From positions 1 to 14,297 of the forward strand of contig PWHN01000096.1 in the NCBI GenBank assembly GCA_003554945.1: a stretch of DNA of 14,297 nucleotides, given 5' to 3'. The position numbers and the translations under genes are program-made. Positions 3,344-8,811 of this stretch are shown one piece after another. The DNA comes from a bacterium (GTDB lineage Bacteria > T1Sed10-126). Within the stretch, counting starts at the first letter, position 1. The number at the start of each line of letters is the position of its first letter. A model generated the notes under the pieces. The model worked only from the letters and a program-made list of their open reading frames with translations, did not search any database and was not told where the DNA came from.

Positions 3344-3370
3344 TTGACAATATAACTATATAGTTATACA
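3344..3370 (+). promoter_or_regulatory. Promoter with 18-bp perfect palindrome, probable ArsR-family operator
   Basis: TTGACA (3344-3349) is a consensus -35 box. TATAACTATATAGTTATA (3351-3368) directly follows and is a perfect palindrome. TATACA (3365-3370) at a spacing of 15 may be the -10. An AT-rich palindrome inside the promoter is the usual operator layout of ArsR/SmtB repressors. The gene that follows encodes one, so autorepression of the downstream operon is the likely arrangement. Confidence 0.75.
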
Positions 3371-3401
3371 CTCATAGATGCTGTAGAAAGGAGGCAAAAA
3401 A

Positions 3402-3764
3402 ATGGCGGGAAAAGCCCTGGAAGAGTGCTACGAGCGGGTGGCTGAAATATTTCGTGCTCTTGGACATCCACTGCGGCTAAAAATTGTGCGTGAACTGGCC
3501 GCCTCGCCCCGCAACGTCAACTGGCTGCACGAGCGGCTCGGGGGGAGTCAGGCCAACATATCAAAACATCTGGCGGTGCTTCGTGATCATTCGATTGTCA
3601 GTCGTAACCGCCAGGGAACAGAGAATATCTACAAACTGGTAAGCGAGGAGACACTTGAGCTGTGCGGTTGTGCATTTGACTGCATTAGAGCTCAGATCAA
3701 AAACGAAGTCGCCCTGATGGATAAATTTGAAGCATCTGAACAGATTTTTAAAAGAAACAATTAA
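3402..3764 (+). CDS. ArsR-family transcriptional repressor with C-terminal cysteine cluster
   Basis: 120 residues, the usual ArsR/SmtB size. The winged helix includes ALGHPLRLKIVREL (19-32) and the recognition helix SQANISKHLAVLRDH (49-63), followed by the wing SRNRQGTENIYKL. The classical alpha-3 ELCVC arsenic site is absent. Instead Cys88, Cys90 and Cys94 form LCGCAFDC near the C-terminus, and Cys9 lies in the first helix. Such a set could bind a thiophilic metal or form a disulfide or polysulfide bridge. AAAGGAGG lies 7 bases before the ATG. The gene heads an operon with thioredoxin, an MMPL exporter and a DUF2892 protein. The pairing of an ArsR regulator with DUF2892 recalls the E. coli ygaV-ygaP pair, which responds to sulfur species, but the effector here is not known. 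Confidence 0.9.
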   Translation: MAGKALEECYERVAEIFRALGHPLRLKIVRELAASPRNVNWLHERLGGSQANISKHLAVLRDHSIVSRNRQGTENIYKLVSEETLELCGCAFDCIRAQIKNEVALMDKFEASEQIFKRNN

Positions 3765-3785
3765 CTTGTTAGGAGAGTGATTTTG

Positions 3786-4094
3786 ATGGCTATAGATATA
3801 TCTGTGGATCAATTTGAGGCTGAGGTGCTTGATAAGTCTGGTGAGGAGCGGGTGGTCGTTGACTTCTGGGCCCCCTGGTGCAATCCCTGCAAAATGCTGG
3901 GGCCAACCCTGGAGGAAGTGTGTGAGGAGGAAGGACTAAAGCTGGTCAAAATCAACGTTGACGAAAACTCCGATCTGGCCCGTCAATTCGGCATCCGCGG
4001 TATCCCGGCTGTAAAGGTTTTTAAAGACGGGGAGGTAGTCGACGAGTTTACCGGTGTACAACCGGAGGAACAGATCAGAAGCGTAGTCACATAA
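3786..4094 (+). CDS. Thioredoxin
   Basis: 102 residues with the complete thioredoxin fold: [14 protein letters not shown] (23-36) holds the redox pair Cys32 and Cys35, IGI-like [15 protein letters not shown] (68-82) holds the cis-proline Pro74, and FTGVQP lies near the end. The active site is WCNPC rather than the usual WCGPC, so its redox potential or partner choice may differ from a housekeeping thioredoxin. An additional Cys46 is present. It acts in the cytoplasm as a disulfide reductant. The ATG at 3786 has AGGAGAG 9-14 bases upstream; the GTG at 3777 is too close to that site. The gene is 21 bases after the arsR-like gene and would be controlled with it. Confidence 0.92.
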
Positions 4095-4116
4095 TGAAAA
4101 TAAGGAGTGGATGATA

Positions 4117-6631: not shown

Positions 6632-6633
6632 TT

Positions 6634-6650
6634 AAAAAGTCGTACTTTTT
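6634..6650 (+). other. Small AT-rich hairpin between operon genes
   Basis: AAAAAGT (6634-6640) and ACTTTTT (6644-6650) form a 7-bp stem with a 3-base loop CGT, ending in five T. The 51-base gap holding it is the largest inside the operon. It could be a weak attenuator or processing site that separates exporter expression from that of the two envelope genes. The stem is weak and a function is not shown. Confidence 0.35.
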
Positions 6651-6682
6651 GCAATAAATATACTTTTCTGGAGGTGGTTCAG

Positions 6683-7492
6683 ATGCGTAAGTTTGTCTAC
6701 GCAGCAATGTTTTTAATCTTAGCGATGGGACTGGTTTATCCACTCGCCGCCGAGCAGCCTGACCCCGAAGAGTTGGCCTATGAGTCCTATGAAACGGCCT
6801 ATTTTCAGGGCGATGACGTGCGCTGGCGAGCCAGCATGGAAATAGTGGACGATCAGGATAGGACTCGTTCGCGGGTGCTTACGATTCTGCGTAAAAATGT
6901 CGGCGAGGAGAGCCAGAAGTATTACGCCTACTTCCACGAGCCTTCCCAGCTTGAACGCATGGTTTTTCTCGTCTGGACCGCGGCCGGTATGGAGGACGAT
7001 GATCGCTGGCTTTACATGCCGGCAACAGACATGCAACAGCGAATCTCCGGACGTCAGAAACGCAACAGCTTTGCCGGCACTGATTTTACCTACGAGGACA
7101 TGACCGGCCGCCACCCCGACCAGGACGAGTTTGAATACCTGGGCACGGATGAGGTTGACGAGCGTCCGGTATACGTAATAAAAGGTGAGCCCAGGGATCC
7201 CGACCTGGTGGAGTTTTCCTATTACGAGATGTATATTGACCAGGAGACCAAGCTACCTCTGAAGGGTGAATTTTACGACCCTCAGGAGGAGCTGCACCGG
7301 ACGTTGAGGTTGCCTGAGTTTGAGGAGATTGACGGCTACTATACGCCGACGCTCCAGGTTGCTGAAAACCACAGCACCGGTTCGAAGACAACCGCCGAGA
7401 TGTCTAACATCGAATACAACCTTGGCATTGGCGAGGATATTTTCGCCGAACGTTACCTGCGCCGTCCACCTACCCAGTGGATCGACCCTTAG
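6683..7492 (+). CDS. LolA-like outer membrane lipoprotein-sorting protein
   Basis: 269 residues with an N-terminal signal peptide (about 1-23, ending PLAA). The mature part matches the LolA-like family that travels with MMPL exporters: repeated antiparallel strands such as DVRWRASMEIVD, SRVLTILRK, RWLYMPATDMQQRISG and TDFTYEDMTGR, then FSYYEMYIDQETKLPLKGEFYD. Proteins of this fold carry lipidic cargo in a hydrophobic half-barrel through the periplasm. ATG at 6683 is preferred because GGAGG (6670-6674) is 8 bases upstream; a GTG at 6674 overlaps that site. Placed between the exporter and outer-membrane barrel genes, it is probably the periplasmic carrier of this system rather than the housekeeping lipoprotein chaperone. 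Cargo is unknown. Confidence 0.85.
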   Translation: MRKFVYAAMFLILAMGLVYPLAAEQPDPEELAYESYETAYFQGDDVRWRASMEIVDDQDRTRSRVLTILRKNVGEESQKYYAYFHEPSQLERMVFLVWTAAGMEDDDRWLYMPATDMQQRISGRQKRNSFAGTDFTYEDMTGRHPDQDEFEYLGTDEVDERPVYVIKGEPRDPDLVEFSYYEMYIDQETKLPLKGEFYDPQEELHRTLRLPEFEEIDGYYTPTLQVAENHSTGSKTTAEMSNIEYNLGIGEDIFAERYLRRPPTQWIDP

Positions 7493-7521
7493 ATCTTGAC
7501 ATCACTTGAGGAGGGATGTGA

Positions 7522-8811
7522 ATGAAGTTGATTAAACCCTTTGTATTTGCTGTAGTTTGGCTGCTGGCGGCAGCAGTTAGCGTCAATCCGGCCGTGGCCC
7601 AGCTAAGAATCAGGGGCTACGCCGAGCCGGCTTACTCCGTTCGCTACGGCGACGCCGGGCCGATTGACGACCGTAACACCCTCAATGAAACCCGGATAAT
7701 GCTGGAAAACCAGTGGTATGGAGGCCAGGGCGAGGTCCTGGATCTGCGCTTTTTGGCGAAACCAGCCGCAGCCGGAGCTGAGGTCGAGGACGAGTTTGAG
7801 GTCCGGCAAGCCTCGGTTCTTTACCCGGCGACGCGGGATCTTGACGTAATTGCCGGCCGCCAGGCAATTGACTGGGGACCTGCTCAGTATGAGTTCGTCA
7901 ACGATCACTTTCCCAAGGACTATCGTTCCTTCTTCCTGGGCCGGGACCTTGAATACATGCGGGCACCCGCAGACGCCCTGCGGTTGCGCTGGTTCTCCGA
8001 CTACGGTAACCTTGATTTGATTGCAATGCCGGAGTTTGAGCCAAACCGTAACCCCGAGGGCGAGGTTATTCCCGTTCATTTTGATGGTGAATTACTGGAT
8101 CAGGAAGAGGTGCTGGAGAAAACTGGTGACAAGCCGCCCCGTAGATTACCTTCGTCTTCGCCCGAAGACGGCGAGGTGCACGCCCGCTGGAGTGAGAACT
8201 ACGGCAGATGGGAGGTGGCGCTGTATGGCTATCGGGGTTTTATGGGTAACCCGGCTGGTTTTAACGCAGACGGGACAGATAACTTTGTTTATCACCCGGA
8301 GATGGCCTCCGGCGGAGCTTCGTTGCGTGGGCCGTTCATGGGCGGAATCGCCTGGCTGGAGACTTCTTTTGACGATATCCGCCACGATGAAGCGGGTGAA
8401 AGTGAGGGGCTTCCTTCGGACGTTTACAACCTGCTGGTCGGCTACGAGTTTGATCACACGCCAACCGTCACCTACATGTTTCAAGTACACTGGTTGCACA
8501 ACTACGATTCGAAGGGGTTGCGTGAGGATATAGACGAAGAGAATCATCCCTACGAGAAGCGCAACCGTTACCGGCTGCAGCTGGCGACCGAACGTTCTTA
8601 CATGTCCGACCGTCTGACCCTGCGAGCTCGTGGTTTTGCCGGTCTTCAGGTACAGGACTGGCATCTGAGGTTGGAGGCCGACTACGAGTGGAGCGACAAC
8701 ATTCGTGTCTACGCCGGCAGCCTGCACTATGACGCCGACAACGAGGCTTCCCGCTTTGGAGCTCTGCAGGACCACGACGCTTTTTACTCAAGGTTGAGGT
8801 ATAGCTTTTAA
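7522..8811 (+). CDS. Outer-membrane beta-barrel protein (DUF1302/porin-like)
   Basis: 429 residues. A signal peptide ends at about residue 26 (NPAVA, then QLRIRGYAEP). The mature chain is rich in alternating aromatic and polar residues typical of barrel strands and ends YSRLRYSF, with the C-terminal Phe used by the BAM machinery. The segment VIAGRQAIDWGPAQYEFVND resembles the GRQxxxWG motif of DUF1302-like barrels. An acidic loop lies at about residues 192-217. GAGGAGGG lies 6 bases before the ATG and 29 bases follow the LolA-like gene. It is the last gene of the operon and probably its outer-membrane outlet. The presence of this gene is a main reason to call the host a diderm. Family assignment beyond barrel is tentative. 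Confidence 0.82.
   Translation: MKLIKPFVFAVVWLLAAAVSVNPAVAQLRIRGYAEPAYSVRYGDAGPIDDRNTLNETRIMLENQWYGGQGEVLDLRFLAKPAAAGAEVEDEFEVRQASVLYPATRDLDVIAGRQAIDWGPAQYEFVNDHFPKDYRSFFLGRDLEYMRAPADALRLRWFSDYGNLDLIAMPEFEPNRNPEGEVIPVHFDGELLDQEEVLEKTGDKPPRRLPSSSPEDGEVHARWSENYGRWEVALYGYRGFMGNPAGFNADGTDNFVYHPEMASGGASLRGPFMGGIAWLETSFDDIRHDEAGESEGLPSDVYNLLVGYEFDHTPTVTYMFQVHWLHNYDSKGLREDIDEENHPYEKRNRYRLQLATERSYMSDRLTLRARGFAGLQVQDWHLRLEADYEWSDNIRVYAGSLHYDADNEASRFGALQDHDAFYSRLRYSF

Follow-up and report, generated by a model that had tools for sequence, protein, structure and literature searches.

An operon of an HAE3/MMPL pump, a LolA-like carrier and an outer-membrane barrel, probably an inducible exporter specialised for sulfur chemistry

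Closest described systems

Among characterised export systems, AmeABCD of Castellaniella defragrans, which combines HAE3, LolA-superfamily and DUF1302 proteins and is linked to tolerance of apolar monoterpenes (PMC6394551), offers the nearest comparison for the operon described here. This operon occupies positions 3344 to 8811, plus strand, of a 14,297-nucleotide stretch of bacterial DNA (the window: GTDB lineage Bacteria; T1Sed10-126; assembly GCA_003554945.1, contig PWHN01000096.1). Like the Ame cassette, it places an HAE3 pump, a LolA-superfamily protein and an outer-membrane barrel in one gene run, and to these it adds an ArsR repressor, a thioredoxin and a DUF2892 protein. The pump clade to which it belongs (group 1 below) is Ame-like as a whole, and Ame itself is tied to tolerance of small apolar compounds. 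Ame differs in having a second periplasmic protein, AmeC (COG4447), which is absent from the window operon and was not noted among the recurrent neighbours of group-1 pumps; its DUF1329 and DUF1302 proteins are longer, and no ArsR, DUF2892 or sulfur genes are reported for it.

A second point of comparison is regulatory. The BigR, SqrR, YgaV and HlyU operons, like the window operon, set an ArsR repressor over sulfur-handling genes, and the Cys pair of HlyU, BigR and SqrR senses sulfane sulfur; the two residues are 66 positions apart (42/108 in BigR, 50/116 in sHdrR; PMC5823870, PMC12423496). Such operons carry oxidising enzymes or inner-membrane TauE/YeeE transporters, and a trans-envelope module is not described there. 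Resistance-nodulation-division (RND) pumps near these regulators are mentioned in PMC12423496, so that the regulatory link has been glimpsed before, but the export system has not. The window repressor is unlike these regulators in lacking the alpha2/alpha5 Cys pair that defines the group, and it scores 47 bits against the BigR equivalog cut-off of 155.

HpnN is, like the window pump, an MMPL/HAE3 protein, but as described it acts without carrier or barrel partners and has no sulfur link; the window pump fails both HpnN-type NCBIfam equivalogs (110 bits against a cut-off of 751.85, and 30 against 1100). The closest solved relative of the window carrier, Porphyromonas gingivalis LolA3 (9tp6), shares 29% identity and a common fold, which does not imply a common cargo. 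The literature searched gave no description of the six-gene system, an absence that is not in itself proof of novelty.

A distinct pump clade and its neighbours

The pump gene (4117 to 6420, plus strand) encodes 767 residues and matches PF03176 above cut-off (91 bits) in two stretches, one for each MMPL half. In a profile search of 290 genomes, whole group-1 pumps scored above 860 bits and the remaining pumps (group 2) below 535, with partial group-1 fragments falling between these values. A FastTree phylogeny of 130 pumps, in which three locus pairs between the random-genome and named sets have identical pumps, divides the two groups by a single branch with full support. Judged by sequence, group 1 is thus a distinct, unnamed pump subfamily found in many phyla. 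H294, D676 and H680 (alignment numbering) occur in 95/95 related pumps, and position 291 is D or N/E in 92 of the 95; the pump retains the D and H side chains that a proton-coupled transporter should have in TM4/TM10.

Neighbours were tallied within 3.5 kb of the pump, on the basis of simple open reading frames (ORFs) and local profile hidden Markov models, at 24 random-genome group-1 loci (the sister locus introduced below counted, the window locus left out) and at 35 group-2 control loci. ArsR was found at 14/24 and DUF2892 at 14/24 of the group-1 loci, with one or the other at 20/24, and each was found at 0/35 controls (either gene, Fisher p=4e-12). The enrichment is local, both genes being nearly absent at distances from the pump beyond 6 kb. 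A TetR-type regulator, named from its sequence without a family search, accompanies 10 group-2 and 0 group-1 loci. Chance linkage was rejected, ArsR and DUF2892 being absent beside all 35 control pumps.

A scan of named genomes with the pump alignment extends this picture to 80 loci, mostly from metagenome assemblies, whose roughly two dozen lineage labels (several of them unranked) include Pseudomonadota, Omnitrophota, Zixibacteria, Myxococcota, Krumholzibacteriota, Nitrospirota and Ignavibacteriota. Pump, LolA-like carrier and barrel occur together in nearly all of these loci, and ArsR or DUF2892, or both, stand beside the pump in 71/80. One other genome of the same family was present in the comparison set, the rest sharing only the domain; this sister (G001) has the identical six genes in identical order at 50-72% identity (ArsR 51%, thioredoxin 52%, pump 70%, DUF2892 72%, LolA-like carrier 66%), and a similar palindrome, ATAACGATATGGTTAT, lies at the matching place 5' of its arsR. 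The neighbourhood analysis invited by the original prediction thus finds that ArsR and DUF2892 stay linked to the MMPL-LolA-barrel module in the sister and across many phyla.

A plasmid search returned one related pump, on Ilyobacter polytropus pILYOP01 (L178), with LolA-like and barrel-type genes; its clade is unsure because the match spans only 38% of the query. It lies directly 3' of selD-yedF-DUF3343, a context hinting at a selenium link, and a small ORF at that locus, when compared, was not DUF2892-like.

Several recurrent neighbours are seen only in group 1: DsrE/DsrH, thioredoxin, DUF302, rhodanese, ETHE1-like metallo-beta-lactamase and Cys/Met-metabolism enzymes. Among group-1 loci, DsrE was counted at 12, thioredoxin at 11 and ArsR-rhodanese fusions at 10. 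At one locus (L100), the gene adjoining the pump encodes a true sulfide:quinone oxidoreductase (SQR; 5e-100 to Aquifex SQR); close homologues occur at seven loci, this one included, and other genes labelled sqr encode more distant flavoproteins. Across the 290 genomes no genome-level coupling of group-1 pumps was seen to SQR (none of the six genomes with SQR belongs to group 1) or to DsrE, for which matches were few.

Another contig of the organism's own genome (G000, contig C45; L139) bears a sulfur cluster at L139:3857-7132, made up of DsrE, a pyridine-nucleotide disulfide oxidoreductase, an OsmC-like protein and an ArsR-rhodanese fusion, followed by a methyltransferase; no pump of the group-1 clade accompanies it. 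A further ArsR gene lies divergent from a lipoprotein-like rhodanese gene on the same contig (L139:17884-18189 and 18383-18766). Between them, L139:9927-17775 holds a heavy-metal P-type ATPase, a low-molecular-weight phosphatase-type arsenate reductase, TetR, and an AcrB-type RND pump with its adaptor, and it seems that the organism handles arsenic and metals in this block and not in the window. A search of this genome for 16S had no match.

Operon structure and components

Six adjacent ORFs on the plus strand (3402 to 8811), each with a good ribosome-binding site, are preceded by a sigma-70-type promoter, TTGACA-17-TACACT (3344 to 3372; 10/12 consensus matches), and followed by an intrinsic terminator (8861 to 8900, plus strand) in which a 17-bp hairpin precedes a T-rich tail; the folded stretch has a minimum free energy of -39.3 kcal/mol and a z of -4.3. 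Start codons were revised for thioredoxin (3786), the pump (4117), DUF2892 (6434) and the LolA-like carrier (6683). Nearly filling the spacer of the promoter, and so overlapping it, is a perfect 18-bp palindrome, TATAACTATATAGTTATA (3351 to 3368, with no strand of its own), the likely ArsR operator. Promoter- and terminator-like matches within the operon, including any that might split arsR and trx from the envelope genes, are weak consensus matches that all lie inside genes. Because there is a single 5' promoter, a strong 3' terminator and only those weak matches between them, the sequence gives good support to the view that the six genes form one operon on one transcript, as had been proposed for them at the outset.

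Upstream, a histidine-kinase gene ends at 3323. It encodes a membrane-bound HisKA_2 protein and is overlapped by 17 bases by the gene for an SBP_bac_3 periplasmic solute-binding protein, the two spanning 1196 to 3323; this pair, immediately 5' of the operon, has the look of a sensory unit of two genes.

The first gene (3402 to 3764, plus strand) encodes an ArsR/SmtB-family repressor of 120 residues (PF01022, NF033788) with Cys at 9, 88, 90 and 94, the last three forming a CxCxxxC arrangement within LCGCAFDC. Among ArsRs beside group-1 pumps, 58/59 have at least two Cys. About 13, mostly gammaproteobacterial, have Cys at aligned positions 30 and 96; the best PDB matches of the gammaproteobacterial proteins (L087, for example) are HlyU, SqrR and BigR with both Cys aligned, and their top NCBIfam equivalog is BigR, at 88-93 bits under the cut-off of 155.

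The second gene (3786 to 4094, plus strand) encodes a 102-residue thioredoxin (TIGR01068, above cut-off) with a WCNPC motif. That motif and the LCGCAFDC of the repressor, both named in the original prediction, are present in the translations, and so is the SCCEDCSC that it placed in the cytoplasmic linker of the pump (residues 392-399). Its wider picture of a cysteine-wired system with thioredoxin as a part fared less well. Among the 95 related pumps 86 have no linker Cys, and the window pump and its sister counterpart are the only two with four; the cysteine-wired pump was rejected, this linker being local to the pair. Thioredoxin accompanies 2/24 random-genome and 8/80 named group-1 loci, a rarity for which it was rejected as a core component.

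Of the extra partners DUF2892 may be the most constant, as lineages that exchange ArsR for a sigma factor and a zf-HC2 protein still keep it. The window protein (6434 to 6631, plus strand; DUF2892/YgaP-like_TM, 65 residues) matches PF11127 at 1e-12 (48 bits against a cut-off of 25.3), and its anticipated conserved Cys-Pro is found at residues 49 and 50, Cys49 being invariant (57/57). YgaVP also has this domain, in line with the Pfam name of PF11127. In Azospira a DUF2892 gene rises about 10-fold under H2S oxidation (PMC5358917).

The identities proposed for the two outer components also stand. The LolA-like periplasmic carrier (6683 to 7492, plus strand; 269 residues) matches PF17131 at 3e-55 (187 bits against 30), and its AlphaFold2 (AF2) model (predicted local distance difference test score, pLDDT, of 94) has a LolA fold, with Z 31.4 to 9tp6 (root-mean-square deviation 1.6 over 236 residues) and Z 14.1 to LolA 2w7q, and with the DUF1329-type 4z48 also among the closest folds. 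The last gene (7522 to 8811, plus strand; 429 residues) has no Pfam match; its AF2 model (pLDDT 85) is an 18-strand, porin/AlgE-like outer-membrane barrel, for which a fold search gave general porin/AlgE-type matches (TM score 0.4-0.5) and no specific relative. Some relatives of this barrel match DUF1302.

Proposed function and alternatives

We consider it probable that this operon encodes an inducible trans-envelope exporter, built from the HAE3/MMPL pump, the LolA-like carrier and the barrel, that is specialised for sulfur chemistry. Sulfide-sensing and sulfur genes almost always lie beside group-1 pumps, so the cargo is probably derived from sulfide or induced by it; analogy with Ame points to a small apolar or amphiphilic compound as what group 1 exports. 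The best reading is an Ame-like efflux route that sulfane sulfur induces and whose inferred substrate is a hydrophobic compound derived from sulfide or induced by it. Sulfane sulfur (persulfide or polysulfide arising from sulfide) would modify the repressor Cys and so relieve repression; thioredoxin, or elsewhere rhodanese or DsrE, may handle cytoplasmic persulfides; DUF2892, with its invariant membrane Cys, could relay sulfane sulfur to the pump or aid loading; the proton-driven pump would pull the hydrophobic compound from the inner membrane; and the LolA-like protein would shield it through the periplasm until its release by the barrel. Hydrophobic polysulfane/zero-valent sulfur or organo-polysulfide is the likeliest class of substrate, followed by a sulfide-induced lipid. 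More narrowly, group-1 MMPL-DUF2892-LolA-barrel systems might be dedicated, widespread carriers of zero-valent sulfur (polysulfane/S8, hydrophobic organo-polysulfides) through the whole envelope, with DUF2892 as a membrane persulfide relay; this stronger form we put forward only tentatively.

A number of observations weigh against such a reading. The CxCxxxC of the window repressor differs from the proven sulfane-sulfur pair, and at least five classes can be told apart among the Cys positions of group-1 ArsRs. At eight Zixibacteria/Krumholzibacteria loci (L059, L061, L070, L078, L084, L092, L106, L113) a sigma-70 factor and a zf-HC2-type anti-sigma gene precede the pump and replace ArsR. Deletion of the Azospira DUF2892 gene hardly altered H2S oxidation (PMC5358917). 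SQR of the L100 type is missing from every group-1 random genome, and a general tie between pump and SQR therefore does not hold. No Cys is conserved in the pump, the carrier or the barrel, and the substrate class is itself inferred.

The lack of conserved Cys in those three proteins would suit a different account, sulfide-responsive envelope remodelling, in which the exporter would supply the outer membrane with a membrane lipid (fatty acid, hopanoid- or sterol-like) so as to shield cells from sulfide stress, the sulfur link being regulatory only. HAE3 relatives move hopanoids (HpnN, PMC6394551), LolA-type carriers, whose fold the window carrier has, move lipids, and a sterol-desaturase-type gene lies beside three Sedimenticola copies. 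Such remodelling is possible but doubtful, for it leaves unexplained the DUF2892, DsrE, rhodanese and SQR genes that lie within or adjoin the same runs of genes, and lipid-biosynthesis genes are not widely recurrent in group 1.

The original prediction had offered a redox-, sulfide- or metalloid-responsive route. Of this, thiol- or sulfide-responsive export is supported by the pump clade and its sulfur neighbours; for the window repressor, with Cys 9, 88, 90 and 94 in place of the HlyU/BigR pair, metalloid and sulfane sulfur are both candidate signals. On a full metal(loid) efflux account, ArsR would sense As(III), Cd(II) or similar through CxCxxxC and Cys9, and the pump would expel a thiolated metal(loid) or organometal complex. 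ArsM-like methyltransferases stand beside three loci, and thioredoxin can support arsenate reduction. This is nonetheless improbable, given that the conserved neighbour set holds no arsenic transporter or arsenate reductase, that the organism's ArsC-like protein and heavy-metal ATPase lie on another contig, and that the clade-wide neighbours are sulfur genes. HAE3 pumps are common and ArsR genes move a lot, so an ordinary general pump might have drifted beside ArsR and thioredoxin genes; with the same neighbours recurring in many phyla and beside 0/35 control pumps (p=4e-12), this is very unlikely and, as stated, refuted.

Implications

Group 1 stands out as a clear protein family whose sulfur-gene signature is strong in many phyla; it also occurs in cultured strains of Marinobacter, Idiomarina, Ferrimonas, Kangiella and Sedimenticola, and it supplies a hypothesis of function for the DUF2892 membrane family. 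The way in which sulfur made inside the cell or at the inner membrane crosses the outer membrane is still unexplained; according to a study of Chlorobaculum from 2025, a transport mechanism for sulfur must exist, its identity unknown (PMC12285230). If true, the reading of group 1 as a carrier of zero-valent sulfur would provide a missing route for sulfur across the outer membrane.

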